A stretch of 64,000 nt of DNA from Symbiodinium sp. CCMP2592 (lineage: Eukaryota > Sar > Dinophyceae > Suessiales > Symbiodiniaceae). Both the position numbers and the translations under genes were made by a program. Positions 10,987 to 26,463 of the stretch are shown here, piece by piece. Every line of letters starts with the position of its first letter. Position 1 is the first letter of the stretch. The stretch spans positions 307,001-371,000 of the forward strand of contig CAJNDT010003124.1 in the NCBI GenBank assembly GCA_905221615.1, in the 5' to 3' direction. Under the pieces are notes generated by a model. The model was not told the origin of the DNA and did not search any database. It was given only the letters and a program-made list of their open reading frames with translations.

Positions 10987-10988
10987 TG
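10942..10988. repeat. (AGT)n microsatellite at left edge of plus-strand block
   Basis: About 15 perfect AGT units directly after the N gap. The same AGT phase on the same strand reappears as a much longer tract at 26945, just beyond the plus-strand gene block. Confidence 0.95.
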
Positions 10989-11289: not shown

Positions 11290-14200
11290 ATGGCGCAATT
11301 GCCAGTGCACTCACAAAACTTTGCATCTCTTCGTAAGAATTCTTTCAAGACAGCATGTAGAAGGACAGTCCGTAGTGACGGGCCCGTACCATACCGAGGG
11401 CAGGTTCTGACACCTACCCTGGTTGATCGTCTGGGGGTGCGCCCCCCACCCACTCGAAGAGAGCTTCAGTCACAGACGGCTGACTCCCCTGCATATGGCA
11501 CAGCCTCCCGCAGGGCAGGAAGGTTGGAAAGATCCATTCGAGTTCTTTCGTGGAACGCGGGCCACCTAGGCCAACAGCAATGGGGCGAACTCAAAACATG
11601 GCTGGCAGCTGAAGCCTCTCATCACTGCGACATCCTCATATTGCAGGAAACGCACTGGACTGAGACCAGCGAATTCAGCGTTTCTGGGTGGTACTGTATC
11701 TCCTCAGCCTCGGAGTCTACCAAACCCAACACCCGGCCTAAACAAGCAGCGACGCGAAACACTCGGCAAGAACCGCGAGCTCCATCCACGACTCGCGCTG
11801 ATGGAGTCATGATCCTATTCTCTCCCAAGTTCGTCCCCAAGAGCTTACGCTGGAAGGCGTGGAGCCCGGGTAGAGTCTTAGAAGCTCGTGCGGACATTGC
11901 AGGTACTCGGCTGGTTGTTGTCGCGGTGTACCAACACGCTTGGTCTTCTGCCAAGACCATCCAGTCCAATAAGGACGACCGTGCTAAGGTACTATCTGTC
12001 ATGTCCAAGGTGATCAAGCAGGTGCCTAAGAGGGACTCCCTTATTGTAGCAGGCGATTTTAACACCTCCCTGCGTCCGAGCTCTCCATTGGTGGGGGTGG
12101 GAACGCACGTGAAGCCACCCACTGAGGACCGCCCTGACGAATCCAACTTGTTCAATCTGCTGCTCAGGCTGCGTTTGGTTGCCCTTAACACCTGGCAATG
12201 TGACCATATAGCTACCTTCTCACAAGGAGGCGTGGAGTCGCAAATTGACTTCATTCTAACCAAAGAATCTACGGCGGGAGGCAAAGCCAAACGGTCAGCT
12301 CCTTGGGTGGACTGTCCGTTGGGCAGCTGGAAGAAAGGAGGGCATTACCCACTCAAGGCTGACGTACCCCTCCAACACCACTGGCTGCTCCCGTCCCACA
12401 AACCCAGCACGCGCCGGTATGATTCACTAGCTCTACAAGCCTCAGTCAGGGAGGAGGACGATACGGCCAAGGCCCTGCACAACTGGATCGCTTCCAGAAT
12501 CGACACCTGCCAGGACCCCAAGGCATGGAATGCGTTGCTTTTGGAAGGTGCAGAACGCTTTTTCCCCAAAATTCCCAAAAGAAGACCGATCCCGCTGGAA
12601 TCGGAAACCCGTCGCATGTGGCGGGCCCGCACCCATGACAGGGCTGCGAATACCACTCCCTCAGCACAGCTGATCGAGTCACCTAAAGCAATGGCACAGC
12701 CTCCTAATCAGAACACGCCACGTCCGCCGGAAACAGAAGCTGAGCTGGCACAAGTGGCACATCGCCAAGCTGTGAAACAAGCAAAGAAAGATCGAATTGC
12801 GAGTTTCATATCGGAGGTGGATGCGAGTCTAGCTGAAGGTGATCAACATATCTCCTTCCAGACCCTCAAAAAGCTGCAGCCTTGGCAGCCCGCGCGCAGA
12901 GCTCAGCTAAAGGACAACACAGGACATCTCCTAGGTCCAGCGCAGGAACTAGCAGCCCTCAGGGACTATGCCAATCAGGTATTTGCGGCCCACCCACCGT
13001 TACGGACAATGCATGGAGCTTTCCCTGCTTTGGAGCCGCCCAAACTAGCAGCTCACATACATTCCATCAAGCCGAACAAAGCTGTTCCTGACGGAGCGGC
13101 ACCAGCGGCTGTATGGAGGCTGTGTAGCGATCTCGTTGCACCGGTCCTCTCCGAACACGTAGCATCCAAGCAGGCCGAGGACAGTCTAGAATCCGACCTC
13201 GTAGACGCAGATCTCTGTTTAATACCCAAGCCGGGCAAGCCCTCTGACAAACCCGCAAACCTGAGACCCCTGGGCATCCTTAGACCTGACGCAAAGGGAC
13301 TGGCGGGAGCGGCCAGAGAAGCGCTTCAACCACTGACACGCTCGTTCCTCAAGCACATGCCACAGTTCGCTTATCTACCAGGTCGGGGGCTGTCAGACGC
13401 GCTAGAACGCGTGGTGCATCACTTGCGAGAGGCTCGATCCCTGTTAGAACAGGCTCACCCCACGAGACACGCCTTGCAACAAGGCACACAGGCCCCAGCC
13501 TTAGTCGGCGGCCTCACCTTTGCTCTTGACCTCAGCCAAGCGTTTGACACTGTCTCTCGACAAGAGATCATCGACCTTCTTCAGAGAGAAGGGGCCGATC
13601 AGGACACAGTCCACCTTGTTCAGGCTCTACATGACGGGTCTCGTTATGTTCTTCACGCGCAGGGATATTCCACCTCTGTTGAAACCACAGCAGGCATTAA
13701 ACAAGGATGTAAGCTCGCCCCCACACTCTTCTCGTTCCTTACAGGTGACCTTTTCCGCTCTCTGGTCGACCTTTTCGGAGCTGAGCAGGTCTTGAAGTTC
13801 CTGACTGGCTATGCCGATGATCTCACGCTCCATCGGACTATCCGCTCTGAAAAGGACCTCAGGGCCATTCATGCTCTCATCGCAGCGCTACTTGAAGAGG
13901 TCCGCAGACATCGTCTTCGCGTCAACATTAGCAAGTGCGTCATCTTAGTGAAGCTAGCGGGAAGAGAATCCCAAAACGTGTTGAACAAACATGGCTGCTG
14001 GATCACCAACTCAAAGGGCGAGCAGGTTCGCGGATGGCGCATAGGGCCCAACAAATCTTTCCCCGCCTTCCAGTGGGTCTCCTGTAGCAAGTATCTGGGG
14101 GTTATGATTTCCTACAACCACTTCGAGCTGCAGTCCTTGCATTACCGCATTGGGGAAGCCAAGCAAAAGCTGCATCAAGTCCGCCAGTTTGTCTACAATC

Positions 14201-16146
14201 GCCGGCACGCGAGCACTATGTCGAGACTTAAGGTTTGGCAAAGCACAGTCCTGAGCACACTGACTACAGGCCTTTCAGACGTCGGACTTAGCGAGGAGTC
14301 GGCCAAGCAGCTACGTAGTTGGCATGCTTACAAGGTGCGATCAGTGCTGAACTTGCCAGCACACACCAGCCGCATCACCACTAAGGACCTCTTCCAGCTT
14401 TATAGCATTCAGGACCCAGTTCAAGCGATGCAGGTCAAGCTCAGGAAGCGTCTCCGCAAACTTGAGCGGCGTGCAGCCAGAAGCCCAGATATCACAACCG
14501 ATCCTGCTGTCCTGCAAGTCATCCGGGACAAGCTGCATTTCATGTCACAGCTCCCAGAAACAGTCGAGCGCCCTGTAGCCCTACATGCATGCACACTCTG
14601 CGATGCCTCTTTTGAGACAGCAAATGGGTTACACTTACACAAGTCGAGAGTGCATCCAGCCAGCATTGACCGATTTGTGCCATCAAGCTTCGATCGGCAA
14701 CTCCACGCGGTGGATGGGATGCCGCAATGTGCCGCTTGCATGCGCAAATTCCATCAATGGAAAGGTCTACGTGACCACCTGTTGTCAGGAGCATGTCCGG
14801 AACCCCAGAAGCTTCGAACTCTGAACGTGACTGACAAGCACTCCAGTCACCCTGAGGTAAGGACCCTGTCCCAGCTGCGTCAGGACATTGCCCAACTCCC
14901 ACAACATCGAATAGCGGTGATCTCAAAGACACCGGAGGCCCGGATCCTGATCCATAGGTGCCTCACGTGTGACTTCTGGACTTTCGATCACACTAAAGTC
15001 AAGTCACACTTTCGTCAGGCGCATCCTAAGGACTGGTCAAGGCTGCACAAACGCGCAGTCTCTATATGTCAGGGTTTCTCACCTCACCTCGCCAAGGGAC
15101 ACCCGTGCTCATTCTGCGGCTATAAGGTCTATGATCGTCGACTGCACCCGGAACAATGCCCCGTACTTTATCAGGTGAGTACACAGTGGCTGCGAGGGCA
15201 ACCGGAGGCAGAGGAAGCCGTTACCGCTCCCCCCTCCAAGCCCCACGAACGGTCACTGACCCACTTCTTTAAGCCCCGGTCGAATGGCACAGCCTCCAAT
15301 CAGTCGAGCACAGCTCGTCACACTCCGGCAGACAAGCAGGCGCCTGATCCGCAGTCCTCAGGACAAGCGGAAATTAGACCCGAAGGAGTGCACAAACGCG
15401 CTCTGACTAACACGTCCAACTCGTGTTACGCTAATGCCCTGTTTCAGGCTCTGCATCAGATCTCGAGCTTTGGGTATGATCTGGGTGCTTTCCAGTCTGT
15501 CCTCTCCCATCTAGGCGACGAGCGAGCCCCCAGATTACTGAACCTGTTAGGCTTGTTTGAATTTCGCCATGCCATCTCAGGCTGGCGACTTGACGGCAGA
15601 CAGCATGATGTCTCGGAGCTGCTTCTGCATATGCAGTCCAAGCCTTTCGGCTCCCTCCAACAAACCCAGTGGCAGGGTCGAACAGATGGCGAGGTTGAGG
15701 ATTCAGATGTGGGAGTCAGCCCACTCCTTCTTCCCCTTCCGCCTGGCCCTCTGTCACTCTCGGCTTGCTTACGGCTGTGGGAGTCCCAAATCTTCTCCCG
15801 CGCGCTAGTTTGGTCACCTGAACTCCTAGCAGTTGTGATTTGCCGCTGGCAGGATGGAGTCAAGAACACTCAGCCGTGTCTTTGGTCAGGCCGCACCACG
15901 GTGCCTGTATGGACCTCAAGTGATGCTCGCACTCAGCGTCACTATCAGGTCATAGCAGGAGTTGCCCACTTTGGGGACTCCCTTTTTTCTGGGCACTACC
16001 GCGCTTTTTGGCCAGAGGACCCAGCGGATACCGCCTCTCAGGTTTGGATCTCTGACGACTACAGGCTTCCGGAAAAGGCCTCAGCGGCCTTGAACCTGTC
16101 CATCTCCAGGAATGTCTACATGCTTTTCTTGCAACGAATTCGCTAG
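11290..16146 (+). CDS. Non-LTR retrotransposon polyprotein: APE endonuclease, RT, C2H2 fingers, ubiquitin-specific protease
   Basis: 1618 residues without a stop. The APE-type endonuclease starts near residue 83 (VLSWNAG) and carries LQETHW (Glu 120) and AGDFN (Asp 256). The RT carries LDLSQAFD (Asp 747), GIKQGCKLAP and YADD at 841-844. Three C2H2-type fingers follow (around residues 1101, 1150 and 1228), with a further Cys-rich motif near 1272. The C-terminus is a compact ubiquitin-specific-protease domain: Cys box NTSNSCYANALFQAL (Cys 1379), a Gln box (RQHDVSELLLHMQ), His box DSLFSGHYRAFW (His 1569) and an Asp-Asp at 1589-1590 before the final strand. It is shorter (about 240 residues) than most USPs. 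The RT would copy the element by target-primed synthesis; the peptidase could remove ubiquitin from element or host proteins. Twin hairpins fall at residues 60-72, 458-471 and 1333-1343, all between domains. The start codon is uncertain, as the first 80 residues are unassigned. Confidence 0.9.
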   Translation: MAQLPVHSQNFASLRKNSFKTACRRTVRSDGPVPYRGQVLTPTLVDRLGVRPPPTRRELQSQTADSPAYGTASRRAGRLERSIRVLSWNAGHLGQQQWGELKTWLAAEASHHCDILILQETHWTETSEFSVSGWYCISSASESTKPNTRPKQAATRNTRQEPRAPSTTRADGVMILFSPKFVPKSLRWKAWSPGRVLEARADIAGTRLVVVAVYQHAWSSAKTIQSNKDDRAKVLSVMSKVIKQVPKRDSLIVAGDFNTSLRPSSPLVGVGTHVKPPTEDRPDESNLFNLLLRLRLVALNTWQCDHIATFSQGGVESQIDFILTKESTAGGKAKRSAPWVDCPLGSWKKGGHYPLKADVPLQHHWLLPSHKPSTRRYDSLALQASVREEDDTAKALHNWIASRIDTCQDPKAWNALLLEGAERFFPKIPKRRPIPLESETRRMWRARTHDRAANTTPSAQLIESPKAMAQPPNQNTPRPPETEAELAQVAHRQAVKQAKKDRIASFISEVDASLAEGDQHISFQTLKKLQPWQPARRAQLKDNTGHLLGPAQELAALRDYANQVFAAHPPLRTMHGAFPALEPPKLAAHIHSIKPNKAVPDGAAPAAVWRLCSDLVAPVLSEHVASKQAEDSLESDLVDADLCLIPKPGKPSDKPANLRPLGILRPDAKGLAGAAREALQPLTRSFLKHMPQFAYLPGRGLSDALERVVHHLREARSLLEQAHPTRHALQQGTQAPALVGGLTFALDLSQAFDTVSRQEIIDLLQREGADQDTVHLVQALHDGSRYVLHAQGYSTSVETTAGIKQGCKLAPTLFSFLTGDLFRSLVDLFGAEQVLKFLTGYADDLTLHRTIRSEKDLRAIHALIAALLEEVRRHRLRVNISKCVILVKLAGRESQNVLNKHGCWITNSKGEQVRGWRIGPNKSFPAFQWVSCSKYLGVMISYNHFELQSLHYRIGEAKQKLHQVRQFVYNRRHASTMSRLKVWQSTVLSTLTTGLSDVGLSEESAKQLRSWHAYKVRSVLNLPAHTSRITTKDLFQLYSIQDPVQAMQVKLRKRLRKLERRAARSPDITTDPAVLQVIRDKLHFMSQLPETVERPVALHACTLCDASFETANGLHLHKSRVHPASIDRFVPSSFDRQLHAVDGMPQCAACMRKFHQWKGLRDHLLSGACPEPQKLRTLNVTDKHSSHPEVRTLSQLRQDIAQLPQHRIAVISKTPEARILIHRCLTCDFWTFDHTKVKSHFRQAHPKDWSRLHKRAVSICQGFSPHLAKGHPCSFCGYKVYDRRLHPEQCPVLYQVSTQWLRGQPEAEEAVTAPPSKPHERSLTHFFKPRSNGTASNQSSTARHTPADKQAPDPQSSGQAEIRPEGVHKRALTNTSNSCYANALFQALHQISSFGYDLGAFQSVLSHLGDERAPRLLNLLGLFEFRHAISGWRLDGRQHDVSELLLHMQSKPFGSLQQTQWQGRTDGEVEDSDVGVSPLLLPLPPGPLSLSACLRLWESQIFSRALVWSPELLAVVICRWQDGVKNTQPCLWSGRTTVPVWTSSDARTQRHYQVIAGVAHFGDSLFSGHYRAFWPEDPADTASQVWISDDYRLPEKASAALNLSISRNVYMLFLQRIR
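11469..11505 (+). repeat. Twin ACA hairpin 1 (in linker before endonuclease)
   Basis: GTC-ACA-GAC at 11469-11477 and GGC-ACA-GCC at 11497-11505. It lies inside the LINE frame, just before the endonuclease domain. Confidence 0.75.
12661..12701 (+). repeat. Twin ACA hairpin 2 (in endonuclease-RT linker)
   Basis: TCAGC-ACA-GCTGA at 12661-12673 and GGC-ACA-GCC at 12693-12701, in the linker between the endonuclease and RT domains of the LINE polyprotein. Confidence 0.8.
15286..15317 (+). repeat. Twin ACA hairpin 3 (in zinc-finger to USP linker)
   Basis: GGC-ACA-GCC at 15286-15294 and CGAGC-ACA-GCTCG at 15305-15317, in the low-complexity linker between the zinc fingers and the USP domain. Confidence 0.8.
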
Positions 16147-16370
16147 CATCATCGCTAGGTTATGCATTCCGGCCCAGCTTCGTCCTCAAGGGCACTGCGG
16201 GGCGCCCGTGCGTGAGAAGCCTATAGTCAATTGAAAGTTGGCATAGGCCACCTCACGTCAAGGCCAAGTTCGTCATGCGCGCACGCGGATATGCACATAC
16301 CGCAATACTTTTTCCTCTCAATCAGCTCGCCCTCTTTTTGTATAGCTTCCAACCCGACTACACGGCCGGC
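16147..16370. other. Intergenic region without recognised feature
   Basis: About 220 bases between the LINE stop and the preferred start of the next frame. No twin hairpin is present here, unlike at most later gene ends. Confidence 0.5.
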
Positions 16371-17165
16371 ATGACCGCTTCCCCTGTCGCAGTCAAGAGT
16401 CCGGAGCACAAACGCTCCAGAAACGGCACAGACAATGAGGACGCATCGGGAATGGATTTTTCTGAAGAGCCTCCACTCGAGTCACTTTCGCCTGCGGCCA
16501 AGGCCGCTGCCCTGCCGAGGCAGCAAGACCAGCCTCGCCGCAAATCAGTCCCGAGACAGAAAGGACCTGGTGCGGTCCAAGGGTTTGGGCAAGGCACCCA
16601 GCCTCGGGCGCAATCTGGTGCCATCCAGGCGCTGAGCCCGGAAGAGCTCACCAAAGCCTTCCTTGTGCACGATGACCAAATGAGCCTGCTGCAGCACCAG
16701 CTATCATTGGTTTACAAACTACCTCAAGACCATCAGCTTTCGAAGGCATTAGTTGCGTCTGTGAAATCCTGGCAGGGAGGCTTGAAGAAGCTGCGCCAAG
16801 GAGAACCCCACCCCGAGGGATCATGCTCGAATGCGGTCTCCCTGGTTCTCCTCCACGAACTGACCAAAGGCAACCCTCCAGCACACGTGGACAAGACGGA
16901 GTACGGCAAGCTCCTGAAAGTGGTGGACTCCATGATCAATATCACTACCGACAAGACCAAGCTAGCACAGGAAATAGTGCACTGCTCTGCTAAGCCGAAC
17001 AAGCTCAAGACGCACGTCATCCTTGACTTCAGGGTGGCAATCTACTCTGACCTCATGCCCTACCTCTCCCTCCTTGCCTCCCTCTTTGACTCCTATGATG
17101 GCTTCGAACGCCTGGGTCGCAAGGCGCCGGGAGGACTGGCTCGTAAGGCTCGAGGCCGTCCGTGA
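16371..17165 (+). CDS. Unassigned helical protein, possible ORF1/gag-like
   Basis: I do not recognise a family. The frame is open from 16275, but the ATG at 16371 (MTASPVAVKSPEHK) is preferred because the 32 residues before it are hydrophobic and look like untranslated leader. The N-terminal 90 residues are charged and Pro/Gln-rich with basic patches; the rest is predicted helical and rich in Leu and Lys. At the 3' end the frame closes with a basic tail, while the +1 frame (from about 17085, NAWVARRREDWLVRLEAVRE) reads more like protein, so a frameshift or small intron near 17090 is likely. Its place after the LINE polyprotein would fit an RNA-binding accessory protein; that is inference only. 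Confidence 0.5.
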   Translation: MTASPVAVKSPEHKRSRNGTDNEDASGMDFSEEPPLESLSPAAKAAALPRQQDQPRRKSVPRQKGPGAVQGFGQGTQPRAQSGAIQALSPEELTKAFLVHDDQMSLLQHQLSLVYKLPQDHQLSKALVASVKSWQGGLKKLRQGEPHPEGSCSNAVSLVLLHELTKGNPPAHVDKTEYGKLLKVVDSMINITTDKTKLAQEIVHCSAKPNKLKTHVILDFRVAIYSDLMPYLSLLASLFDSYDGFERLGRKAPGGLARKARGRP

Positions 17166-17181
17166 GCTTGGCCTAGTGGAA

Positions 17182-17215
17182 GCACACAGTGCACTAATTT
17201 CCTCAGCACAGCTGA
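17182..17215 (+). repeat. Twin ACA hairpin 4
   Basis: GCAC-ACA-GTGC at 17182-17192 and TCAGC-ACA-GCTGA at 17203-17215. It falls just after the stop of the preceding frame, or within its frameshifted 3' end. Confidence 0.85.
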
Positions 17216-17383
17216 TGTTCTGATCCGTCTTGCACTTTTCACTCAGGTACAGCGTGACTAGCAAGGCTGCTGATTCTTTCAACAAAGTTCCAGCTGCGCA
17301 TCAAAACGGAGCCTGTCGTGAGCAGATTACTTCGCTCCACTTCATGTCCTGAGCGTGCCAGCCTGGCTCGAGCCCTTAGCACT

Positions 17384-17635
17384 ATGGATCTCACACGGTT
17401 TGCGGACCTACCGGGCCCTGACCAAGTCCCGCATTTCCTGAATCTGGTGCATCAGCTGGACGAGATTCTCAAGCGCAAGGCCTCGCAACTCTATACAGAC
17501 CCTGGCTCGGCGTCATCTACCAGCTCTCAGACTGCCGAACGATGCACTTTGCCCTCTGGCAAGGCCCGTCCTCCCACACCGCCGGCTCCTAAACATCGAC
17601 GAACTGACGCAGCTCCAGACCAGGACGCTACGTAA
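17384..17635 (+). CDS. Small unassigned protein
   Basis: A frame of 84 residues from the ATG at 17384 (open from 17318). It has a helical N-terminal half (FLNLVHQLDEILKRK) and a Ser/Pro/Thr-rich, basic C-terminal half. It may be a separate small gene or a downstream exon of the frame ending at 17165. Coding status is uncertain. Confidence 0.35.
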   Translation: MDLTRFADLPGPDQVPHFLNLVHQLDEILKRKASQLYTDPGSASSTSSQTAERCTLPSGKARPPTPPAPKHRRTDAAPDQDAT

Positions 17636-17781
17636 TCTATTCCGAGAACTAGGCACAGTCGGCGGAGCCGGCTATCAGCGAGCAAAACTCACTGCCATGT
17701 GTCTTTCTTTAATTTGTTTCCTGCTCCTGACTCCACTGTCTTGCAACTAGGTCACAGGGCTCAAGCTACCAGTGGCAGGTA

Positions 17782-17814
17782 GCACACAGTGCAGCACGGA
17801 TTCGTCACAGACGA
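17782..17814 (+). repeat. Twin ACA hairpin 5 (directly before kinase-like gene)
   Basis: GCAC-ACA-GTGC at 17782-17792 and TCGTC-ACA-GACGA at 17802-17814. The kinase-like ATG follows 20 bases later. Confidence 0.85.
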
Positions 17815-17834
17815 TATCTCCCCCCCACGCTGTG

Positions 17835-19055
17835 ATGAATCGAGCTCCATATTCTGATGGAGTGCATGAGGCTCTCGGTCGGAGCCATATGCCCGGACTT
17901 CGACGACCGGTTGACCCCCAAGTGACTTCCGCCATCTCACCAGAGCTCTTGGGCGTGAAGATCGCAAATGGATACGCCAGCGCGGTCTTCAATTCCAGTG
18001 CTGCAAACTTTGTGCTCAAGAAAGTCACGAGACCTCAGGAAGAATACATGGCCAGAAGAGAGTTTAGCAGATTATCGAGATTCCCGCCCATCAACACCAT
18101 CATCGAGGCTTACTGGCAGCAGGGCCCAACGCTACTACTGCCACGGCTGTACCCTGCTCATATCCCCTCTATGACGACGGACCACGTCGTCAATCTCGTC
18201 GCTGACATCCGGTCTGCCCTCAACGCAGTGCATTCCAGCCAACTGGTTCACGCGGACATCCACATGGGCAACATCATGGTGCGCTACGACCCCCCCACCT
18301 ATGTCCTGATCGATTTTGGCGGCACCGCGGGGGAAAGTGTCTATCCTCTCAGCTTGGGCTACGGAGCCCTTGGCCAGGGAGGAATGCTTCATCGTCCTCC
18401 TCACGAACTTATGGAGCGACCCACCAGGACCGTCAGAGGTGACTACTACAGGCTCAGCAAGACGATCTCCGTCGAAATTGTGGGCAACAAGTGCTGGCGC
18501 GACACTGCGTCGGGTTTCCCGATGCCCCCGAAACTCCCCAAGCACCTTCGCGTCGAGCTGGCAGAATGGGAGAACCTCGCTGGCCTCACTCCACCCAAAT
18601 GGCCAGAATCTGCCTTTCCCGGAGGAAGCTGGTACGAGACTGCCATTGATCCCTCGATCACCGTGCAAGCCGGCTTGTATGATGACGCCGGCAACGTCCG
18701 ACTGGCCACCGCCGTCTTCTCCTACTCCAAGCAGCAAAAATCCAATGCATCCGGGCTCTTCGGGCCAGAAGATCCCAAACGGGCCTCTTTGGACTCCGGA
18801 AGCTGGGAGGAATCTGCTGCTTACGCTAGGTTCTTCCTATCTTGCAGGCTCAGGACCATGGGCAGCCACATCCGGACCATGTACACGGAGGTCCTGCCGT
18901 ACCAAAAGTACAGCAACCAGGATGGCTACCTCATGCTGGAGAATGCTCTCGAGCACCCTCCACCTCCACCACCTCCTCCGGCTACCAGCTCGAACGAGCC
19001 AGCGCCCTCGACTCCGGCTACTGAGCTGCAGGGCATTTGGGCGGAAATGGACTAG
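17835..19055 (+). CDS. Protein-kinase-like protein
   Basis: The frame is open from 17772, but the ATG at 17835 is preferred because the codons before it consist of twin hairpin 5. Numbered from 17772, the kinase landmarks are Lys 83 or 84 (FVLKKV), Glu 97 (REFSRL), the catalytic loop LVHADIHMGNIMV with Asp 162 and Asn 167, and the metal-binding LIDFGG with Asp 181. These are the residues needed for phosphotransfer, so an active kinase is plausible. The HADIHxxN form of the loop is seen in atypical and small-molecule kinases as well as in Ser/Thr kinases. The region after the kinase domain (260-427) is unassigned and ends in a proline run. Substrate unknown. A kinase inside a retroelement-like block is unusual. 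Confidence 0.75.
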   Translation: MNRAPYSDGVHEALGRSHMPGLRRPVDPQVTSAISPELLGVKIANGYASAVFNSSAANFVLKKVTRPQEEYMARREFSRLSRFPPINTIIEAYWQQGPTLLLPRLYPAHIPSMTTDHVVNLVADIRSALNAVHSSQLVHADIHMGNIMVRYDPPTYVLIDFGGTAGESVYPLSLGYGALGQGGMLHRPPHELMERPTRTVRGDYYRLSKTISVEIVGNKCWRDTASGFPMPPKLPKHLRVELAEWENLAGLTPPKWPESAFPGGSWYETAIDPSITVQAGLYDDAGNVRLATAVFSYSKQQKSNASGLFGPEDPKRASLDSGSWEESAAYARFFLSCRLRTMGSHIRTMYTEVLPYQKYSNQDGYLMLENALEHPPPPPPPPATSSNEPAPSTPATELQGIWAEMD

Positions 19056-19067
19056 GCTTCAATCGCA

Positions 19068-19101
19068 GGACACAGTCCACTCAGCGGCATATGGCACAGC
19101 C
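19068..19101 (+). repeat. Twin ACA hairpin 6 (12 nt after kinase stop)
   Basis: GGAC-ACA-GTCC at 19068-19078 and GGC-ACA-GCC at 19093-19101, 12 bases after the kinase stop codon. Confidence 0.85.
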
Positions 19102-19141
19102 TCCGCCACGCGGTTACTGTAACCAATTTGTCGCGGGAATA

Positions 19142-19175
19142 GGACACAGTCCACATCAGCCTGAGTCACAGACTC
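19142..19175 (+). repeat. Twin ACA hairpin 7
   Basis: GGAC-ACA-GTCC at 19142-19152 and GAGTC-ACA-GACTC at 19163-19175. It is the second pair in the same intergenic gap. Confidence 0.85.
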
Positions 19176-19323
19176 TGTTCCAGCGCCCACTGCCTACAGC
19201 ACTGGCCTCAGCCCGAGAAAACACCTGTGCATCTGTCTTGAGCGCAGTTGTCTGCACTTTCCGTTCCCGCTGCTTGAGCTCAGCTTCATCTAAGCTACTG
19301 GCTCCCAACTTGCGCGGGCGCAC

Positions 19324-20283
19324 ATGGCTGGCGAAGATGACTGCCCCATCAGGGCCATTTCCTTTCCCGCCGGGGTCTTCGCAGACTACATGGATGACTA
19401 TCTCACCCTTTCTGCGCTGAAGTTGTATTGTGCGGAGGCCCACGTGGCCCTGCCACCGGCAGCGGGAACATGGCCATCAAATGACATCACGGCATGGGCA
19501 AACAAAGCTCTCCCACCCCAACAGTGGCAGCAATTCGAGAAGTATCTCGAGTCCATGACTACCATGCCCTGCTCCGGGATGGAGGAAGGCTGCTTAGTCA
19601 ATCCCATCCCGCACGGAGGACTACTACACATGGTGCCAAAGGCAGAGCAGATAGCTAACAACTGTCTCACTTCTCGCTGTCTCTCCATCTGGTCCTCGGT
19701 CCGCCAGGTTCTGCAGCACCTACCTTTCGAGGCCCACGACAGATGGGAGCACTCTCCCAGTGCGGCTGGCTCTTCATGTGGCCAGCGCTTTCGGGTTGGT
19801 GCTTACTGCCGAGTTCTCCCTGGCCTGCTCAAGGAGACGGTCTCCCATCCCAACGTCACTCGTCTCTTCAATGCATTCGTGTGCTCATGTCATCCAAGTC
19901 ACCAGTGGACTTCGCTTGAAATCTTAGTGGATGTGCAGTCCCCACCGCACAAAGATGCTCGCAATGCTGCCTTGGGCACTCTGCTCATCCCGATTTCGAT
20001 TTACGACCAGGGCGGCCTATGGATCGAAGACCCAGACGGCTGCGACTACCAGGAGATCCCGCGCCAGCAGGGGATGACCCGGGGAAGTTGCTTTGACCTA
20101 CGGGGTCTCAGCCTTCTCTTTCGGGCGGATGCGCTGTGGCATGCAACTCTACCATGGGAAACCTATACTCGTGTCGTTTTGGCGGCCTACACGGTCAGAG
20201 GGGTCTCTCGTTTCTCACCAACGCTGCAACAGCGCCTGACCGAGCTGGGTTTTCGTCTGCCGCTAGGCACAGCAGATGATTAG
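19324..20283 (+). CDS. 2-oxoglutarate/Fe(II) oxygenase-like protein
   Basis: 319 residues. The C-terminal half has the iron-binding pattern of the double-stranded beta-helix oxygenases: His 209-x-Asp 211 (PPHKDARN), a glycine-rich strand GGLWIEDP (230-237), His 273 (LWHATLPWE) and Arg 283 ten residues later (RVVLAAYTV), which in this superfamily binds 2-oxoglutarate. The N-terminal 150 residues are unassigned. The family includes protein hydroxylases and nucleic-acid oxidases such as AlkB and TET/JBP; which type this is cannot be told by eye. It stands between the kinase-like gene and three small paralogues and is followed 7 bases after its stop by a twin hairpin. Confidence 0.7.
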   Translation: MAGEDDCPIRAISFPAGVFADYMDDYLTLSALKLYCAEAHVALPPAAGTWPSNDITAWANKALPPQQWQQFEKYLESMTTMPCSGMEEGCLVNPIPHGGLLHMVPKAEQIANNCLTSRCLSIWSSVRQVLQHLPFEAHDRWEHSPSAAGSSCGQRFRVGAYCRVLPGLLKETVSHPNVTRLFNAFVCSCHPSHQWTSLEILVDVQSPPHKDARNAALGTLLIPISIYDQGGLWIEDPDGCDYQEIPRQQGMTRGSCFDLRGLSLLFRADALWHATLPWETYTRVVLAAYTVRGVSRFSPTLQQRLTELGFRLPLGTADD

Positions 20284-20290
20284 TTCGAAT

Positions 20291-20321
20291 GGCACAGCCT
20301 TCTGAGCTGAGACACAGTCTC
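20291..20321 (+). repeat. Twin ACA hairpin 8 (7 nt after oxygenase stop)
   Basis: GGC-ACA-GCC at 20291-20299 and GAGAC-ACA-GTCTC at 20309-20321. Confidence 0.88.
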
Positions 20322-20464
20322 CGACCATCTCTGCTTGTCAGCTAAAGTTACAGCAGGTATTACAGCACATGTGCTTCTATGCATCGCAGCTACAAATCAC
20401 TGCCATTCTTCAGTCCTTTTAGGCTCCCCAGTTTGGCTCTGCCTCCATTAGCTAGCCTGCAACG

Positions 20465-21115
20465 ATGGAGGACGCATTTGTTCAGCGAATTTTCCACTTC
20501 CTGACGCCGATGCTTCTACGCCTCGACTTCTACCTGCGGCTGACAGACCAGGATCACACAGCCATCGACGACTTGAGAAGCCAGCCCAGCCTCACGGGAC
20601 CAGGCCTCACCCCAACCGAGGAAGCTTTTCGTACGGACAGGTCGATAGCAGCCAGAACAGGTCTCCTAAAACTTCTCCAGGAGTGCTTTAACCACTGGCC
20701 GGCCCTCTCCATCAACTACGTCTCTGCGCCGGACACACCGGACCTGACTGACATGCACCTTATCTACGAGGTCACGCAGCCGCGTCTAAAACAGGTCCGA
20801 CGACTTGCTACTGTCAACCGAGTATGGCATGACCTCATATCAGCCATGATCTCTGGTCAAGCCCGTATCAATACAGTGGAACTTTTGGTGGCGATGTCAC
20901 GCCTGCGCAAGACAGGCTCAGTGTCGATCCAGGAAGGCCGGGATGTCTTCTGCCTCCCGGTCTCGATGGCGTTTCGACTGCCGGTTGAGACCCTCACTTC
21001 ACCTCTGGCACGCACAGCTCCCGCCGCTGCCTACCGCGCCTCGGGCTTCAACGCTTGGCATGCGCTCCTCTTCGACAGCTACGATGACCTGCTAGCGCAC
21101 GCGCCCCAGGATTGA
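20465..21115 (+). CDS. Tandem paralogue A, F-box-like motif
   Basis: 216 residues, no family recognised with certainty. It shares its layout with the next two genes: a start followed by about 20 mostly hydrophobic residues ending in LRLDFY, a variable middle, then a helix pair (VRRLATVNRVWHDLISAMI) that resembles the core of an F-box. A is the most diverged of the three. If the motif is a true F-box it would recruit SKP1, but F-boxes usually lie near the N-terminus, whereas here the motif is central. Confidence 0.6.
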   Translation: MEDAFVQRIFHFLTPMLLRLDFYLRLTDQDHTAIDDLRSQPSLTGPGLTPTEEAFRTDRSIAARTGLLKLLQECFNHWPALSINYVSAPDTPDLTDMHLIYEVTQPRLKQVRRLATVNRVWHDLISAMISGQARINTVELLVAMSRLRKTGSVSIQEGRDVFCLPVSMAFRLPVETLTSPLARTAPAAAYRASGFNAWHALLFDSYDDLLAHAPQD

Positions 21116-21151
21116 TCAGCAGGTGAAGACTACATAGTAGCTCCCTCAGAA

Positions 21152-21189
21152 GCGCACAGCGCACCTCTGCTGGCATTAGGGCACAGCCC
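21152..21189 (+). repeat. Twin ACA hairpin 9
   Basis: GCGC-ACA-GCGC at 21152-21162 and GGGC-ACA-GCCC at 21179-21189, 36 bases after the stop of paralogue A. Confidence 0.88.
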
Positions 21190-21410
21190 ACGGCCGATAA
21201 CCGAAACATTGGCTGGTGCGACGGCCGCGCAACAGGCCTGACCGTGCCATTAAGGTTTCTAACTTTTTGAAGCTGCTCGGCATGAAAACTGGGCATCCTC
21301 CGCGCCAGCCAGAGTAAGCAGTGCGCTCGCTTTGCCTTGAGCTATCTCTTGGCATGTCCCCTACTCCCTGCCAGGCTCTGTCAGCTAGCTCCCAGCGTCC
21401 CCTAACTGCC

Positions 21411-21923
21411 ATGGACGAGCTCTCTCTGCGCCAAGCTATGAAATACCTGCTCCCAGGGGTACTGACCATCGACTCCTACGACGCCTCGCCCTATCCCACC
21501 TCCTACTGGAACGATCTGGACCTTCTTCATGATGAAGCTCGTGCCACTCGTGATCGTCTACGTGACCTCCTTCTACGTTGGGCTCGCACGGGTCCCTTCT
21601 CGCAGTACTCCATTATCGGAGACACACTCAGGATTGACCACAATGGAGTGCATGCTCAGCTCGGCATCGTCAATCTCAATCTGCTACAAGCAATTCCGCT
21701 AGCGGCGGTTTGCCGTGCGTGGTACTCCGTAACTGCCCGCCTCATCGACGGCAAACCCTGGATAGGAGTGTGGAGAGCCTACATCCAGCTGCGTAAGCAA
21801 GGTGCAGGAGTTTTCATTGAAGTGCTGCCAGATCAAGCCGGCACTCTTTCGAGCGAGGCCATCAGCGTCCACTATGAGCAGGTGCACTTCATTCCGACCT
21901 CAGTCTTGAGACGTCCTCTATAG
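21411..21923 (+). CDS. Tandem paralogue B, F-box-like motif
   Basis: The frame is open from 21321, but the ATG at 21411 (MDELSLRQAMKYLLPG) aligns with the starts of paralogues A and C and is preferred, giving 170 residues. It shares LTIDSY near residue 18 and the central block GVHAQLGI...LLQAIPLAAVCRAWYS with paralogue C, where the helix pair is again F-box-like. The C-terminal beta-rich part (GVFIEVLPDQ, EAISVHYEQVHF) also aligns with C. Function unknown. Confidence 0.65.
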   Translation: MDELSLRQAMKYLLPGVLTIDSYDASPYPTSYWNDLDLLHDEARATRDRLRDLLLRWARTGPFSQYSIIGDTLRIDHNGVHAQLGIVNLNLLQAIPLAAVCRAWYSVTARLIDGKPWIGVWRAYIQLRKQGAGVFIEVLPDQAGTLSSEAISVHYEQVHFIPTSVLRRPL

Positions 21924-21930
21924 GGCAAAG

Positions 21931-21962
21931 GGCACAGCCTTCAGACAACTGGTCACAGACCA
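21931..21962 (+). repeat. Twin ACA hairpin 10 (7 nt after paralogue B stop)
   Basis: GGC-ACA-GCC at 21931-21939 and TGGTC-ACA-GACCA at 21950-21962. Confidence 0.88.
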
Positions 21963-22107
21963 TGCGACGAGCCGGGCTTCTCCACTCTGGAAAAGGCAAA
22001 CCCGATTAGCGTTGCCCCTTAGTGTTGCGGCTCCATGTTGCGCTTCTAAGTAAGTTTCTCCGCAGTCTTTTCTAGGCTGCTCTCAGCTGCCCTGCCAACC
22101 ATTGAGG

Positions 22108-22740
22108 ATGTCTTCCCCTCTCTGCTCCGAATCATGTCGCTGCGCTCTCTCCTTCATCATTCCTGCAGTGGTGGTTGTGGATTTCTACTCGGACAACGGT
22201 TTGGACAGGGACATGTTGGCGACTGAAATCGCTGCATACAGACCCCCCTGGACTATAGTTCCCATACTGCTGCTCCGGAACGAGATCGAGGACCAAGCAC
22301 GCCTCTGGGCCTTTCGCCGATTACATAAAGGCCTAGCTGTCTTTGCGCAACGGTACGAAGACACTGACTATGACCAACAGGGTGTCCATGTCAGACTAGC
22401 GATACCGCAGCCAGACTTGCTGACAGCCATCTCACTGGCGTCGGTCAGCAAATCCTGGTGCGCAGCAGTGCTCTCCCAGGTGGAGCATAAGATCTTTGTG
22501 AGTTCACACCGCACTGCCAGGGCCGCTATGTCTCTCGGCCTACGTGTCATGGTCCAGTCCTTTGACACGCCCCAGTGGCATCTCGCGTCCGAGGAGCTTA
22601 CCATCCACATTCAACACCGCCAACAGGTCGTGGTGCAGAAGTTCCGGAACCCCCGTAACTCGGACGGACCGACGGCAACCATCAGCCGAGAAGCCGAGGA
22701 ATCCAGTGCTCTCCACGACCACTACTACAGACTTTTCTGA
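22108..22740 (+). CDS. Tandem paralogue C, F-box-like motif
   Basis: 210 residues from the ATG at 22108 (one upstream ATG at 22102 is possible). The N-terminal VVVDFY and the central GVHVRLAI...LLTAISLASVSKSWCA match paralogue B closely in layout; the C-terminal ELTIHIQHRQQVVV also aligns. No enzyme motif is visible. Three diverged copies in a row suggest duplication followed by diversification, as in recognition or adaptor proteins. Confidence 0.65.
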   Translation: MSSPLCSESCRCALSFIIPAVVVVDFYSDNGLDRDMLATEIAAYRPPWTIVPILLLRNEIEDQARLWAFRRLHKGLAVFAQRYEDTDYDQQGVHVRLAIPQPDLLTAISLASVSKSWCAAVLSQVEHKIFVSSHRTARAAMSLGLRVMVQSFDTPQWHLASEELTIHIQHRQQVVVQKFRNPRNSDGPTATISREAEESSALHDHYYRLF

Positions 22741-22784
22741 GCACTTTGGGCCATAGGCAGTTCACTGACTCAAGCAAGGAAAGT

Positions 22785-22839
22785 GGCACAGCCTCCGATT
22801 AAGTGTGGCACAGCCACCCAGCTTGTCACAGTCAGCAAC
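22785..22839 (+). repeat. Twin ACA hairpin 11 plus a broken third copy
   Basis: GGC-ACA-GCC at 22785-22793 and GTGGC-ACA-GCCAC at 22805-22817, 44 bases after the stop of paralogue C. A third CACAG at about 22835 (GTC-ACA-GTC) has lost its stem and may be a decayed arm. Confidence 0.85.
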
Positions 22840-23176
22840 GAGTGGCTCCCCTGCCCAGAGAAATCGACTTGCAGCATGCTAACACTCAGCTACTTGCATC
22901 ATTGTTTTCTCTCACCTGTGTTCTGAGTTCTGAGGTCTCGGCTACCACACGGCACCAACTCTCAGCCCGAGTGCCCTCTGCTGGTGTTCTTTGCCTAAGG
23001 TTGCCCAGCGTCGCTTGAGCTTCGTGCTTGGTCTTGAGACTATGCTAAACATTACATGTATACCGCAGCTGTCAGTTCGAACTGTTGTACCGGACGGAGC
23101 GGCAGGAGTATCGTAACAAGCATTTCAATCACGCCTTGCAGAAGCTACTTCTCGTAACAAACTGAGTCTTTACGAA
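22840..23176. other. Intergenic region without recognised gene
   Basis: About 340 bases between two twin hairpins. I see only short open frames and no conserved motif. Confidence 0.5.
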
Positions 23177-23211
23177 GAGCACAGCTCACCACTTGGCCGC
23201 GTGTCACAGAC
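23177..23211 (+). repeat. Twin ACA hairpin 12 (before glycosyltransferase)
   Basis: GAGC-ACA-GCTC at 23177-23187 and GTC-ACA-GAC at 23203-23211. The glycosyltransferase ATG is 27 bases downstream. Confidence 0.82.
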
Positions 23212-23238
23212 TCTGGCCCATCAGCTACAGCTGAGACC

Positions 23239-26200
23239 ATGGACAAACCTCCCAGTCTGGGCCCTTTTCTGGTGCTCAGCGATAGCACCTTGCAGCACAT
23301 GCTGCGGGGACACACTTACGGCGTGTTCCCGCTGCTGACGGGCCAGGTCTTAAGCTGCCCAGGCGCCGCCCTCAACATTTCTGCCGGCAGCGTCCCCTCC
23401 ATCTTGGAGCTCCTCCACTGGCAATTTGGGCTCTTTGGGCCGCACAAATTCACAGCGGCTGTGCAGAGTCCGCCGGTGGCCTCCATCTTGGAGAACCACC
23501 TCGACGGACAAATCAACGTTCGCTTCATTCCGCTGTCCCGAAGCCTGCGCCCGGAGAAGCAAATCAATTATGACTACCTGATCGATGGCAGGGTCCAATA
23601 TGGCTTCGCGGACAAGAACCTGCACAACCAAGAAATCATGGACCTTGCCCAGATGCCTGGTGTAGGAGGAGTAGAATGGCTCTACAACTCCAAGAACCTT
23701 CATTTCCGCCCCGAAGTCGCGGACATTGTCATCCCGGCGCTTGGAACCAGAGCCATCGAGGAAATGCGCAACACCCCAGGACTGCCTGTCCTCGTGGTCG
23801 CTGGTTGGAACGCTCGCGAACAGGACATGCATGTCGAAATGCTAGCTGCCCAGGCTCTGTCGCAATGCCGCAAGGTCCGTGATCTTTCAGAAGTAGCCAT
23901 GCAATACGGACATGGCCCCTGGGGAATGCGATTCACACATCTCCCAGAATGGGAAGCCGCCCCTGTCCCAGCCCTCCTCTTCCAGACCTACGTTCACGAC
24001 GAAAAGCCGGAACCGGCCCAAGTCGCGGCCAAAATGTTTGCTGGCTTCACCCGCAGATTCTGTGATGATGATGTTCTTCGGGCTACCCTGCGGCAACTCG
24101 CAGGAAAGTACGGCTCCAGTCTGCTGGATCGCCTCAGCCAACCTGCTCATCGAGCAGACGTATTCCGATACGTCTACCACTACCAGCACGGCGGCCTATA
24201 CGTCGACATCAAATGTGGCTTCGTGGTACCTTGGGAACAAGTACTTGTGTATCTCGCAGCAGATTGGAGCACAGCTCACTCAAAGAAGGCAGGTGAAGTG
24301 GGTCACAGACCCTCCCCACCTGGCCAACTCCCACAGGAGTTCATGGTCATGGCCATAGGAGTCAAAGGAGATCATATTTTTCAAGGCATCATCTATGGCA
24401 AGCCCAGACATCCCTTGATGAGGGAAGCCATACAGCACGCCTTCAGCCGTCAGGTTATGACAGCGAAGGCAAACTTGGAATACATGACCTTCTGCAAATA
24501 TCTTTGGCAGATCTTGGGTCGCGACCTTGGTCACTCCCCTCAGCCGGGATGGAATGTTTCCACCAAATTCGGCCCCATCTACCTGTTCTCAGAGCGCTGG
24601 GACAAGCGAGTGAAGAACAAGAAGTACGACAATGATGGCCACTACTTCGTGACTACCAACAACACGACCGTTGCATATACCCGTTGCTGGAAGTGGCTGA
24701 AGGGATTTCAGGGAGACCCAACCACCAAGGAACGCACAGACCGCATGCTGCAGAGCCAACTCCCTGACATCTCCCTTGAAATCCAGTCTGACAGACCTGA
24801 AGAGCACAGCTCACCACAGCCACTTAGGTCACAGACCATGGCAACCGCCTCATCGGCTCCCCCTCCTCCCACTCAGGAGGATATTGAAGCCTATGTGGCC
24901 GACAGCATCCAGTACAACTCCTTTGCAGAGATCATGGCTACGGTCCGTGCAACCCACCACTACAATCAAGACCTTACAGAGCAGGATGTGCTGGAGCTTA
25001 TCCCTAGAGGATTAGGGCAAGTGAAAGTCTCGGGGGACATGTGGCTATGCTGCTTGCACTGCCGCAAGCACAACAGGCAGGTGCAATTCAGCACTAGCCA
25101 CGGCCTTAAGAACCACTTTGTCACTCAGAAGCACAACCCAGCACTCAGTGCCACGCCAGCCCCCCACTCTCCCCCCCCTCCTCCTCCCCCCAAGCTCCCC
25201 CAGGAAATTCCTCTTCCCCCCAGCAGTACCAGGACCAAAGGTGTGGACAAAGCAGCCGGCTTTGAGCCGCCACCCTCCCCCCCTTGCCCTTTCACCTCCT
25301 CAGCAGCTGAAAAGGCGGCCTTCAAAGCAGGCCAAGCAGAAACACCGAAGGCGGCCCCAGCGCTTCCGGTTAAGGCCCCACCGCCCTTGGTGGCCACCCA
25401 AAGCCCCCCGCCCTCATCTTCATCGGCGGCACCAGCCCCCCCTCCTGCGATTCCGGTCCCCCCGATCCTTCCGCATCCCCCCAAGTCCGTCTCTCCTCCA
25501 ACCCCCGCCACCCAGGCCGCTCCGCGCTCCCACACGCCCCCTCCTCCCTCTTCCCGCCCCCCGTCAGCATATGAGCCTCCGGAATCCAATGCGGAACTCG
25601 TCGGCTATGTCCCGCAGCCGGCTCCACGGCTGACAGTACGCTACACGAGGCAGGAGTTGGCTCAGCTGCTGAGCTCCCAGTCCCATCAAGACTGGATTCG
25701 GGCCTTAGCTTCCATCAACATCCTGGTGGCCCCGGTCATTCTTGGCGGCCTCACCAACCAGGAACAACAGACCCTTTGGTCTACCAGGATGGAAGCACTC
25801 CGAGAAGTTCCGCCGCTGTTCTCTGCCATCAAGTCCGTCAGGACGCAAACCGGCCTCACATGGGACACCGCCATGTCGGTAAGGCGAGTCCTCACAAGCG
25901 ATGGGAAGGTCACCATCGCCACAGGAGCGGGCGATGCCTACCGCGAGCTGGACGCGCCAACAAAAGTGCATGGCCTTATCCATGCCTGCTTCAACAAGAT
26001 GTGGGACGAAAAGGCTTTTCAGCAACACTTCCCCTCGTGGGTCGAATTCAATATGATCGCCACCACCATAGTGGCAGTCTACAACGAGACTGCAAAATCA
26101 GCTGGACTCCCAGCTCGTGTCTTCCGGGTCAAACCTGACAAAAATGCCTACTCCATCATGAAGATGCGGATACAGCATGACAAAGGGAACGAAGAGGACA

Positions 26201-26418
26201 AGCGCATGGCCAAGCTGGCTGCTGCTGCAACTCACAAGCGCCCACAGATGCAGGAGGCAGACACAGAGGGCAAGCGGCAGCGCGATGGCCCCTCCTCATC
26301 CTCCTCGTCCCAGTGGGCCAGACAGGCACGTTCATCTCAGGACGACGACTGGGACTGGTGGCAGCAGTGGTCCTGGCACGGATACTCTCAGCAGTGGCCA
26401 AAAGGTCATGACCAGTGA
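23239..26418 (+). CDS. GT32-like glycosyltransferase fused in frame to zinc-finger, proline-rich protein
   Basis: 1059 residues. The N-terminal 230 residues are unassigned. From about 258 (ALLFQTYVHDEK) the sequence follows GT32-like sugar transferases, with RADVFRYVYHYQHGGLYVDIK carrying Asp 307 and Asp 323. The usual second Asp of the DXD metal site is replaced in DIK, a form I believe occurs in some members. A twin hairpin (24267-24312) is inserted in frame next to this domain. At residues 521-533 a second twin hairpin is read through, directly followed by an ATG (24838). The rest has a C2H2-like finger (CLHCRKHNRQ, ending HFVTQKH), a long proline-rich segment, a helical domain and a basic, Trp/Gln-rich tail. 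The frame may be one fusion or two cistrons that happen to share a frame. Confidence 0.7.
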   Translation: MDKPPSLGPFLVLSDSTLQHMLRGHTYGVFPLLTGQVLSCPGAALNISAGSVPSILELLHWQFGLFGPHKFTAAVQSPPVASILENHLDGQINVRFIPLSRSLRPEKQINYDYLIDGRVQYGFADKNLHNQEIMDLAQMPGVGGVEWLYNSKNLHFRPEVADIVIPALGTRAIEEMRNTPGLPVLVVAGWNAREQDMHVEMLAAQALSQCRKVRDLSEVAMQYGHGPWGMRFTHLPEWEAAPVPALLFQTYVHDEKPEPAQVAAKMFAGFTRRFCDDDVLRATLRQLAGKYGSSLLDRLSQPAHRADVFRYVYHYQHGGLYVDIKCGFVVPWEQVLVYLAADWSTAHSKKAGEVGHRPSPPGQLPQEFMVMAIGVKGDHIFQGIIYGKPRHPLMREAIQHAFSRQVMTAKANLEYMTFCKYLWQILGRDLGHSPQPGWNVSTKFGPIYLFSERWDKRVKNKKYDNDGHYFVTTNNTTVAYTRCWKWLKGFQGDPTTKERTDRMLQSQLPDISLEIQSDRPEEHSSPQPLRSQTMATASSAPPPPTQEDIEAYVADSIQYNSFAEIMATVRATHHYNQDLTEQDVLELIPRGLGQVKVSGDMWLCCLHCRKHNRQVQFSTSHGLKNHFVTQKHNPALSATPAPHSPPPPPPPKLPQEIPLPPSSTRTKGVDKAAGFEPPPSPPCPFTSSAAEKAAFKAGQAETPKAAPALPVKAPPPLVATQSPPPSSSSAAPAPPPAIPVPPILPHPPKSVSPPTPATQAAPRSHTPPPPSSRPPSAYEPPESNAELVGYVPQPAPRLTVRYTRQELAQLLSSQSHQDWIRALASINILVAPVILGGLTNQEQQTLWSTRMEALREVPPLFSAIKSVRTQTGLTWDTAMSVRRVLTSDGKVTIATGAGDAYRELDAPTKVHGLIHACFNKMWDEKAFQQHFPSWVEFNMIATTIVAVYNETAKSAGLPARVFRVKPDKNAYSIMKMRIQHDKGNEEDKRMAKLAAAATHKRPQMQEADTEGKRQRDGPSSSSSSQWARQARSSQDDDWDWWQQWSWHGYSQQWPKGHDQ
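24267..24312 (+). repeat. Twin ACA hairpin 13 (in-frame insertion in glycosyltransferase)
   Basis: GAGC-ACA-GCTC at 24267-24277 and GGGTC-ACA-GACCC at 24300-24312. It interrupts the glycosyltransferase shortly after the DIK motif but keeps the frame, adding roughly 15 polar residues. Confidence 0.87.
24802..24837 (+). repeat. Twin ACA hairpin 14 (ends at an ATG)
   Basis: GAGC-ACA-GCTC at 24802-24812 and GGTC-ACA-GACC at 24827-24837. The next base begins an ATG in good context (gaccATGg). Confidence 0.87.
24838..26418 (+). CDS. Alternative separate cistron: zinc-finger, proline-rich, basic-tail protein
   Basis: If translation starts at the ATG directly after twin hairpin 14, the product has 526 residues: a helical N-terminus, a C2H2-like finger (CLHC...HFVTQKH), about 200 residues rich in Pro/Ser, a helical domain and a tail with KRQRD and alternating Trp/Gln. 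The position of the hairpin matches its intergenic placement elsewhere. The finger and basic tail suggest nucleic-acid binding, perhaps a gag/ORF1-type role. Whether it is separate from the glycosyltransferase is undecided. Confidence 0.45.
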   Translation: MATASSAPPPPTQEDIEAYVADSIQYNSFAEIMATVRATHHYNQDLTEQDVLELIPRGLGQVKVSGDMWLCCLHCRKHNRQVQFSTSHGLKNHFVTQKHNPALSATPAPHSPPPPPPPKLPQEIPLPPSSTRTKGVDKAAGFEPPPSPPCPFTSSAAEKAAFKAGQAETPKAAPALPVKAPPPLVATQSPPPSSSSAAPAPPPAIPVPPILPHPPKSVSPPTPATQAAPRSHTPPPPSSRPPSAYEPPESNAELVGYVPQPAPRLTVRYTRQELAQLLSSQSHQDWIRALASINILVAPVILGGLTNQEQQTLWSTRMEALREVPPLFSAIKSVRTQTGLTWDTAMSVRRVLTSDGKVTIATGAGDAYRELDAPTKVHGLIHACFNKMWDEKAFQQHFPSWVEFNMIATTIVAVYNETAKSAGLPARVFRVKPDKNAYSIMKMRIQHDKGNEEDKRMAKLAAAATHKRPQMQEADTEGKRQRDGPSSSSSSQWARQARSSQDDDWDWWQQWSWHGYSQQWPKGHDQ

Positions 26419-26430
26419 GGGCGATAATAT

Positions 26431-26463
26431 GTCACAGACTCTATGATCCCTTATGTCACAGAC
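26431..26463 (+). repeat. Twin ACA hairpin 15 (12 nt after last stop)
   Basis: GTC-ACA-GAC at 26431-26439 and GTC-ACA-GAC at 26455-26463. This is the last copy and marks the right limit of the block. Confidence 0.8.

Follow-up and report, generated by a model that had tools for sequence, protein, structure and literature searches.

Twin ACA stem-loops along a giant nine-ORF non-LTR retrotransposon of Symbiodinium, candidate cis-acting RNA signals

We analysed a stretch of 64,000 nucleotides from Symbiodinium sp. CCMP2592 (GenBank assembly GCA_905221615.1, contig CAJNDT010003124.1, positions 307,001 to 371,000 of the forward strand; hereafter the window), in which a first-pass annotation had noticed pairs of short hairpins with an ACA loop in what it called a nuclear gene block. 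This label proved wrong, as the block is a copy of a repeated, multi-copy retrotransposon with a reverse transcriptase and an endonuclease, probably of the type without long terminal repeats (non-LTR). We read it as one copy of a dispersed element of ~16 kb that has nine open reading frames (ORFs) and targets TAG repeats. Its body extends on the + strand between (TAG/AGT)n tracts (10988..26900; outer limits approximate), as assessed by blastn to ten other copies fetched from the same genome and by the terminal TAG-like repeats.

The ten copies aligned to the window from ~10942 to 27190 with 78-98% identity, some being gapped or incomplete, and were collinear apart from gaps. The element ends adjoin TAG-like tracts on both sides: a (TAG)n or degenerate TAG-like repeat was present at all ten 5' ends and at 8 of the 8 3' ends shown, and the 3' end was common to these eight copies. 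Copies truncated at the 5' side were found at C1:2739 kb, C596, and C5056, and a TAG/CAG-like repeat lay directly upstream of the truncated C5056 copy. A search with the reverse transcriptase scored 94 close copies among 3395 candidates. The copies were spread over many contigs, one of them 4.0 Mb long, and the dinoflagellate spliced-leader sequence (DinoSL, as given in PMC6050394) had 429 exact matches in the 1.1-Gb assembly versus 0 for the reversed sequence. A search of IMG/VR with the reverse transcriptase of the element found no relative, and no such element was described in the titles and abstract beginnings among the open-access literature matches listed.

All nine ORFs lie on the + strand. 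ORF1 (11290..16146, 1618 aa) matched the Pfam families Exo_endo_phos (27.2 bits, cut-off 24.5) and RVT_1 (78.5 bits, cut-off 29.6), and ended in a ubiquitin-hydrolase-like stretch (15320-16143) with third-position excess, the UCH match (21.9 bits) being under the cut-off of 23.9. ORF2 (16371..17165, 264 aa) and ORF3 (17384..17635, 83 aa) had no Pfam match, and neither did ORF4 (19324..20283, 319 aa), ORF5 (20465..21115, 216 aa), and ORF7 (22108..22740, 210 aa). ORF6 (21411..21923, 170 aa) is a paralogue of ORF7 (22% identity, E 5e-10), which ORF5 resembles at most weakly. Between ORF3 and ORF4 lies a kinase-like ORF (17835..19055) that matched ABC1 with 23.4 bits (cut-off 22.9), and Pkinase and APH below cut-off. 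The last frame is a glycosyltransferase-like ORF (23239..26418) with a match to a DXD region (20.7 bits, under the cut-off of 23), a proline-rich C-terminal part, and a single weak, uninformative match in PDB. All these frames showed an excess at third codon positions except ORF3, for which a codon-position bias was found in the stretch that contains it (17240-17640). ORF5, ORF6, and ORF7 (20465-22740) have a LAxVxxxW motif in common that matched nothing in Pfam; a likeness to F-box proteins, suspected by eye, was dropped as Pfam gave none at E<=10. In the C5056 copy, ORF7 is duplicated in tandem, with a hairpin pair (T11, see below) after each copy (G000:C5056:257868-259339, L060-L062).

The 15 pairs, numbered T1 to T15, are all on the + strand. 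Three are in ORF1: T1 (11469..11505; stems GTC/GAC and GGC/GCC) ahead of the endonuclease match, T2 (12661..12701; TCAGC and GGC) between the endonuclease and reverse-transcriptase matches, and T3 (15286..15317; GGC and CGAGC) between the reverse-transcriptase and UCH-like matches. The first stem of T1 reads CAGTC/GACTG in other copies, the window itself having lost the outer pairs. T4 (17182..17215; GCAC and TCAGC) follows the ORF2 stop, T5 (17782..17814; GCAC and TCGTC) lies directly ahead of the kinase-like ORF, T6 (19068..19101; GGAC and GGC) past its stop, and T7 (19142..19175; GGAC and GAGTC) ahead of ORF4. The next four follow the stops of ORF4 to ORF7 in turn, i.e., T8 (20291..20321; GGC and GAGAC), T9 (21152..21189; GCGC and GGGC), T10 (21931..21962; GGC and TGGTC), and T11 (22785..22817; GGC and GTGGC). 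T12 (23177..23211; GAGC and GTC) is directly ahead of the glycosyltransferase-like ORF, which itself contains T13 (24267..24312; GAGC and GGGTC) and, close to where its C-terminal part begins, T14 (24802..24837; GAGC and GGTC). T15 (26431..26463; GTC and GTC) lies past the last stop; its stems are GGC, AGGC, or TGGC in other families. One further GGAC-ACA-GTCC hairpin (13602..13612, + strand), in the reverse-transcriptase region, is unpaired; of the 10 other copies listed, 9 have it intact, but it is possibly a chance occurrence.

This catalogue was obtained with a script that searched the two strands of the window for all CACAG words flanked by complementary arms. With a stem of at least 3 bp, there were 32 hairpins on the + strand and 5 on the - strand. 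All but one of the former (at 3321) fell inside the element, where 30 of them form the 15 pairs (11469-26463), with stems of 3-5 bp and an ACA loop that a C-G pair closes. The interval 10942-27190 thus contained 31 hairpins on the + strand and 0 on the - strand. One thousand dinucleotide shuffles of this interval gave a mean of 2.5 hairpins (maximum 8) and of 0.008 pairs (maximum 1), indicating that chance yields two to three single hairpins and practically no pairs. The annotated count of 15 pairs and 30 hairpins was therefore confirmed, as were the excess over chance and the uniform orientation (30 of 30 hairpins being oriented with the ORFs). The chance expectation of about one site had been set too low, and the spacing announced within pairs (18-33 bases) became 20-34 nt when measured from loop to loop; it was nearly fixed at each site. 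CACAG was also the commonest of the three-base-loop hairpins of the element (31, versus 6 for the runner-up). Rfam gave no match at gathering score in 10942-27300.

In the sequence sampled, no pair was seen outside the element. In 67 kb of fetched sequence that does not align to it (~1.4 kb counted twice), we found 16 hairpins, on both strands, and no pair. The surroundings of eight further reverse-transcriptase genes, taken from 150 matches listed and amounting to 28 kb, contained 5 hairpins on the + strand, 0 on the - strand, and again no pair. Across the 1.1-Gb genome, a 13-base hairpin word occurred 1021 times versus 13 for the reversed word, with spacings that recurred among the places listed. 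T10 had 169 exact matches versus 0 when reversed; its spacing was identical in 95 of the 100 matches listed and off by one base in the other 5. A wider pattern (a first hairpin with the stem GGC and then, 9-14 nt further on, CACAG) had 701 matches versus 5 for the reversed pattern. Among 100 listed of these 701, the second stem had at least 4 bp in 99, and for any one of the four commonest second stems the total length was constant across its copies; a second stem of this length was found in 1 of 19 matches for a related pattern that leaves out most true sites.

We then compared the stems across the ten copies, taking as arms the complementary runs of the window's own sequence and leaving insertions uncounted. 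No change was found in 1522 arm cells, and only 3 in 1295 cells of the CACAG core, all in the loop. By comparison, 8.5% of the cells were changed in the spacers, 9.6% in the 20-nt flanks, 7.0% in the remaining coding sequence, and 7.6% in CACAG words outside hairpins. Inside ORFs, 0 of 528 arm cells were changed, while the second codon positions of the whole ORF1 were changed in 1.2%; in none of the whole ORFs tested did the second codon positions change as little as the arms. The signal is thus probably of great importance to the element, and the molecule that reads it should be findable.

Further evidence for conservation was obtained with eight loci picked by a match to the ORF7 protein rather than by hairpins (8 of 150 scored; two near-identical in the stretch). 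T10 and T11 were each intact at all eight. The flanks of the intact T10 and T11 copies, the only ones taken into this comparison, differed by up to 64% and 72%, respectively, with means of 39% and 44% (an ungapped comparison, so that divergence is overstated). As the sites are common to the copies and the spacing is nearly fixed, the hairpins are inherited parts of the element and not separate mobile units.

With respect to the ORFs, 10 of the 15 pairs fell within non-coding sequence, between ORFs or past the last one, although such sequence makes up 16% of the element (p 2e-5). Of the 9 stop codons, 7 were followed by a pair with its first loop at a distance of 11-48 nt (P 0.0015 by placement given the gaps). 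Both tests were devised after the pattern had been noticed. At the ORF3 stop, the nearest downstream pair was at 151 nt. The five pairs inside ORFs are T1, T2, T3, T13, and T14; T2, T3, and T14 sit between domain matches, T1 and T13 not clearly so. The codon-position bias holds one frame across all five, and the loop distances of T1, T13, and T14 (28, 34, and 25 nt) are not multiples of three, so that we rejected an excision of the stretch between the loops.

Since the stems were invariant in the ten close copies, no covariation is visible among them, and we turned to older families. The second stem of T15 was GTC/GAC in one lineage and GGC/GCC in another (5 + 5 of ten loci, plus L029), and its first stem was AGGC/GCCT or TGGC/GCCA in families in which the end of the ORF is 37-57% identical to that of L081. 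The second stem of T12 is GTC/GAC in the window and GGC/GCC in both tandem copies of L079, whereas the stems of T13 and T14 were unchanged in all ten loci of this between-family comparison. In an alignment of T15 from 12 sequences (related rows, picked for a visible hairpin pair, one of them degenerate), 81% of the cells could pair versus at most 46% when the partners were slid, and the covariation score was 0.258 versus 0.073 for shuffled alignments, none of 500 shuffles reaching it. Because the stems change by paired substitutions between older families, the fold, besides the sequence, appears to be under selection. The statement of the first-pass annotation that the fold is selected or needed for mobility was thus supported in its first half, owing to these compensatory changes at the same site, and not supported in its second, the sites being shared; the covariation statistic that it called for was itself divided, as described below. 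Nine old T15 pieces were also inspected (two further families, C2258 and C4977, being left out of this survey). Two had two intact hairpins, L090 had one intact hairpin and one with the loop CCA, and L082, L083, and L084 had one intact hairpin each. Beyond the helix, the terminal mismatch was T.T in 9 of 11 stems of 3 bp and A.A in 9 of 10 stems of 4 bp, so that recognition may extend past the helix.

Two side observations were made at these loci. The tandem T12 duplicate (L079:884-1027) has its copies ~95 nt apart, the downstream one having ACT as its first loop. At L082:65 (G000:C5367, reverse strand), a GTTGC-TGT-GCAAC hairpin with a 5-bp stem and the complementary loop TGT adjoins an intact GGC-ACA-GCC.

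On balance, we think it more likely than not that the hairpin pairs act in cis as signals on the RNA of this giant, polycistronic non-LTR retrotransposon. A protein would bind them, and they would serve ribonucleoprotein (RNP) assembly, the control of cistrons, or both. The uniform strand points to a single-stranded molecule, of which RNA is the simplest. A putative reader would recognise the loop and helix of each ACA stem-loop and, as the nearly fixed spacing of each site suggests that both hairpins are bound together, would sit on each pair, possibly in dimeric form. The element itself would most likely encode it, since no pairs were found in ~140 kb of other sampled sequence. By coating the ~16-kb RNA, the reader would drive RNP assembly and cis-preference; alternatively or in addition, it would control individual cistrons. 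The signals mostly come right past the stop of a cistron, and those within the two long ORFs often fall between domains. Stop proximity favours cistron control, while the pairs in coding sequence and the pairless ORF1/ORF2 junction favour assembly.

Several observations weigh against this interpretation. The pairless junction and the five pairs inside ORFs break a strict rule of one pair per cistron. T9 was present in 4 and absent in 4 of the 8 other copies reaching the site; the ~132-bp segment that bears it (21093-21224) is absent from the subfamily L018, L020, L021, and L025. Copy L019 has a duplication inside T1, and C5056 lacks an intact T10 before its second ORF7 and has a broken second hairpin in its second T11; copies with damaged hairpins may be dead copies. 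At 3 of the 9 old T15 sites (L085, L088, and L089), no intact ACA hairpin was found. Two of five measures applied to the T15 alignment, the pairs changed on both sides and the further pair types, were not above shuffles (289 of 500 each). RNA folding of nine isolated twins was no better than that of shuffled sequence (z -1.5 to +1.2), and the minimum-energy fold of T1, T11, T13, and T15 differs from the twin. Finally, the stems differ among sites yet are frozen at each site across most families, which is unexpected for pure recognition of structure and may mean that each site has its own partner.

A less probable alternative is that the pairs punctuate the cistrons, i.e., that each is a processing or translation signal (cleavage, a trans-splicing guide, re-initiation, or internal initiation) by which the nine ORFs are expressed from a single RNA, the pairs inside ORFs being old, fused borders. 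The pairs near seven of the nine stops, the ten pairs outside ORFs, and the position of T2, T3, and T14 between domain matches agree with it, as does the trans-splicing of dinoflagellate mRNAs described in PMC6050394. The pairless ORF1/ORF2 junction speaks against it, and so do T1 and T13, which lie in coding stretches of a single frame, where cutting or splicing would break the ORF. More tentative still is an extended form of our own interpretation, in which the element would be a nine-cistron RNA replicon and the twin stem-loops an address system at most borders, each with its own near-frozen stems, used by an element-encoded reader for RNP assembly and cistron control and possibly marking the joins of cassettes. 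The pairs could also act in single-stranded DNA, either as hairpins of the complementary DNA (cDNA) during target-primed reverse transcription or as attC-like points of exchange of ORF cassettes. Uniform orientation is equally expected for cDNA, most ORFs are followed by a pair, structure is kept while sequence varies among sites, and C5056 carries a tandem ORF7 unit. We nevertheless consider this unlikely, as Pfam matched no recombinase domain in any ORF of the element and no cassette exchange was seen in the ten collinear copies; integron attC sites are no closer a model, for the same two reasons.

It is very improbable, in our opinion, that the pair is an independent mobile double-hairpin element that invaded the retrotransposon. 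This idea can call on like units at many sites, on first stems common to neighbours (GCAC in T4/T5, GGAC in T6/T7, and GAGC in T12-T14), on the tandem T12 of L079 and the three hairpins of L081, and on the loss of T9 from one subfamily. However, the sites were identical in the copies and families examined, pairs were missing from the sequence sampled outside the element and around the other reverse-transcriptase genes, and the pairs changed far less than their surroundings. Because positions, stems, and spacing stayed constant where flanks had diverged, the twin moves because the 16-kb element moves, and the idea that the twin is itself mobile, like double-hairpin elements of organelles, was not supported. 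As to chance or protein-coding constraint, the stems are short and were picked by eye, which could favour such an account, but we give it practically no credence. A chance origin was rejected by the shuffles and by the reversed-pattern controls (0 versus 169 and 5 versus 701), and coding constraint alone by the ten non-coding pairs and the absence of changes in the arm cells of ORFs.

Among known systems, the packaging signals of viruses occur singly, are degenerate, and are not known to be associated with stop codons. The present hairpins are, by contrast, twin, with a near-invariant loop and near-frozen stems, and ORFs 2-7 are without Pfam match. Taken as one RNA, the element would nonetheless carry several stem-loops with a common recognition motif, and it is like dispersed RNA-virus packaging signals in having many stem-loops with a common loop motif and differing stems on one long RNA (PMC6281560). 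The constitutive decay elements bound by Roquin, described in PMC6294493 for animal mRNAs, have a consensus YRN loop on a stem of 6-8 bp; stem sequence is free, G-U pairs lower activity, and the 3' untranslated region of UCP3 contains a tandem pair of which both members are needed. The likeness lies in short stem-loops with a three-base loop, side by side and downstream of a stop (PMC6294493), and the present hairpins, if read in antisense, would have the UGU loop and C-G closing pair used in Roquin structures. They differ in the ACA sense loop and in the stems, which have 3-5 bp in the window and reach 7 bp at T10 of some loci; moreover, a single retroelement contains 15 pairs, part of which lie in coding sequence.

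The double-hairpin elements of fungal mitochondria are GC-rich and thought to be mobile in organelle DNA; they share with ours two hairpins per unit and a mostly intergenic, occasionally genic location (PMC10085805, PMC5910586). Only this outline is common; the present units are triloops at shared sites in a nuclear retrotransposon. Instead of filled and empty sites, the same sites were found in the families examined, T9 alone being variable, and the copies lie on many contigs of a 1.1-Gb assembly with DinoSL matches rather than in an organelle. An endonuclease and truncated copies are typical of long interspersed nuclear elements (LINEs) in general. Symbiodinium LINEs carry a captured methyltransferase ORF and hence resemble the element in combining a reverse transcriptase with a captured extra enzyme (PMC5890265). 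The present element differs from them by its nine ORFs and ~16 kb, and the main text of PMC5890265 makes no mention of hairpins.

Non-LTR retrotransposons usually have no more than two ORFs, and few RNA signals are known from their interior; gene expression in dinoflagellates is unusual. If our interpretation is true, a ~16-kb member with nine ORFs and 15 near-invariant twins would mean that non-LTR elements can reach a virus-like complexity, and it would offer a handle on how the long polycistronic RNA of a retroelement is packaged or expressed in dinoflagellates.

Two further features were noted next to the element. On the - strand, an ORF of 1281 aa (7161-11006) that encodes CCCH zinc fingers and a Torus domain spans an N gap, of which the end is at 10941, and runs into the 5' edge of the element. 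Downstream of the element, at 27834-27856, there are short telomere-like CCCTAAA repeats.

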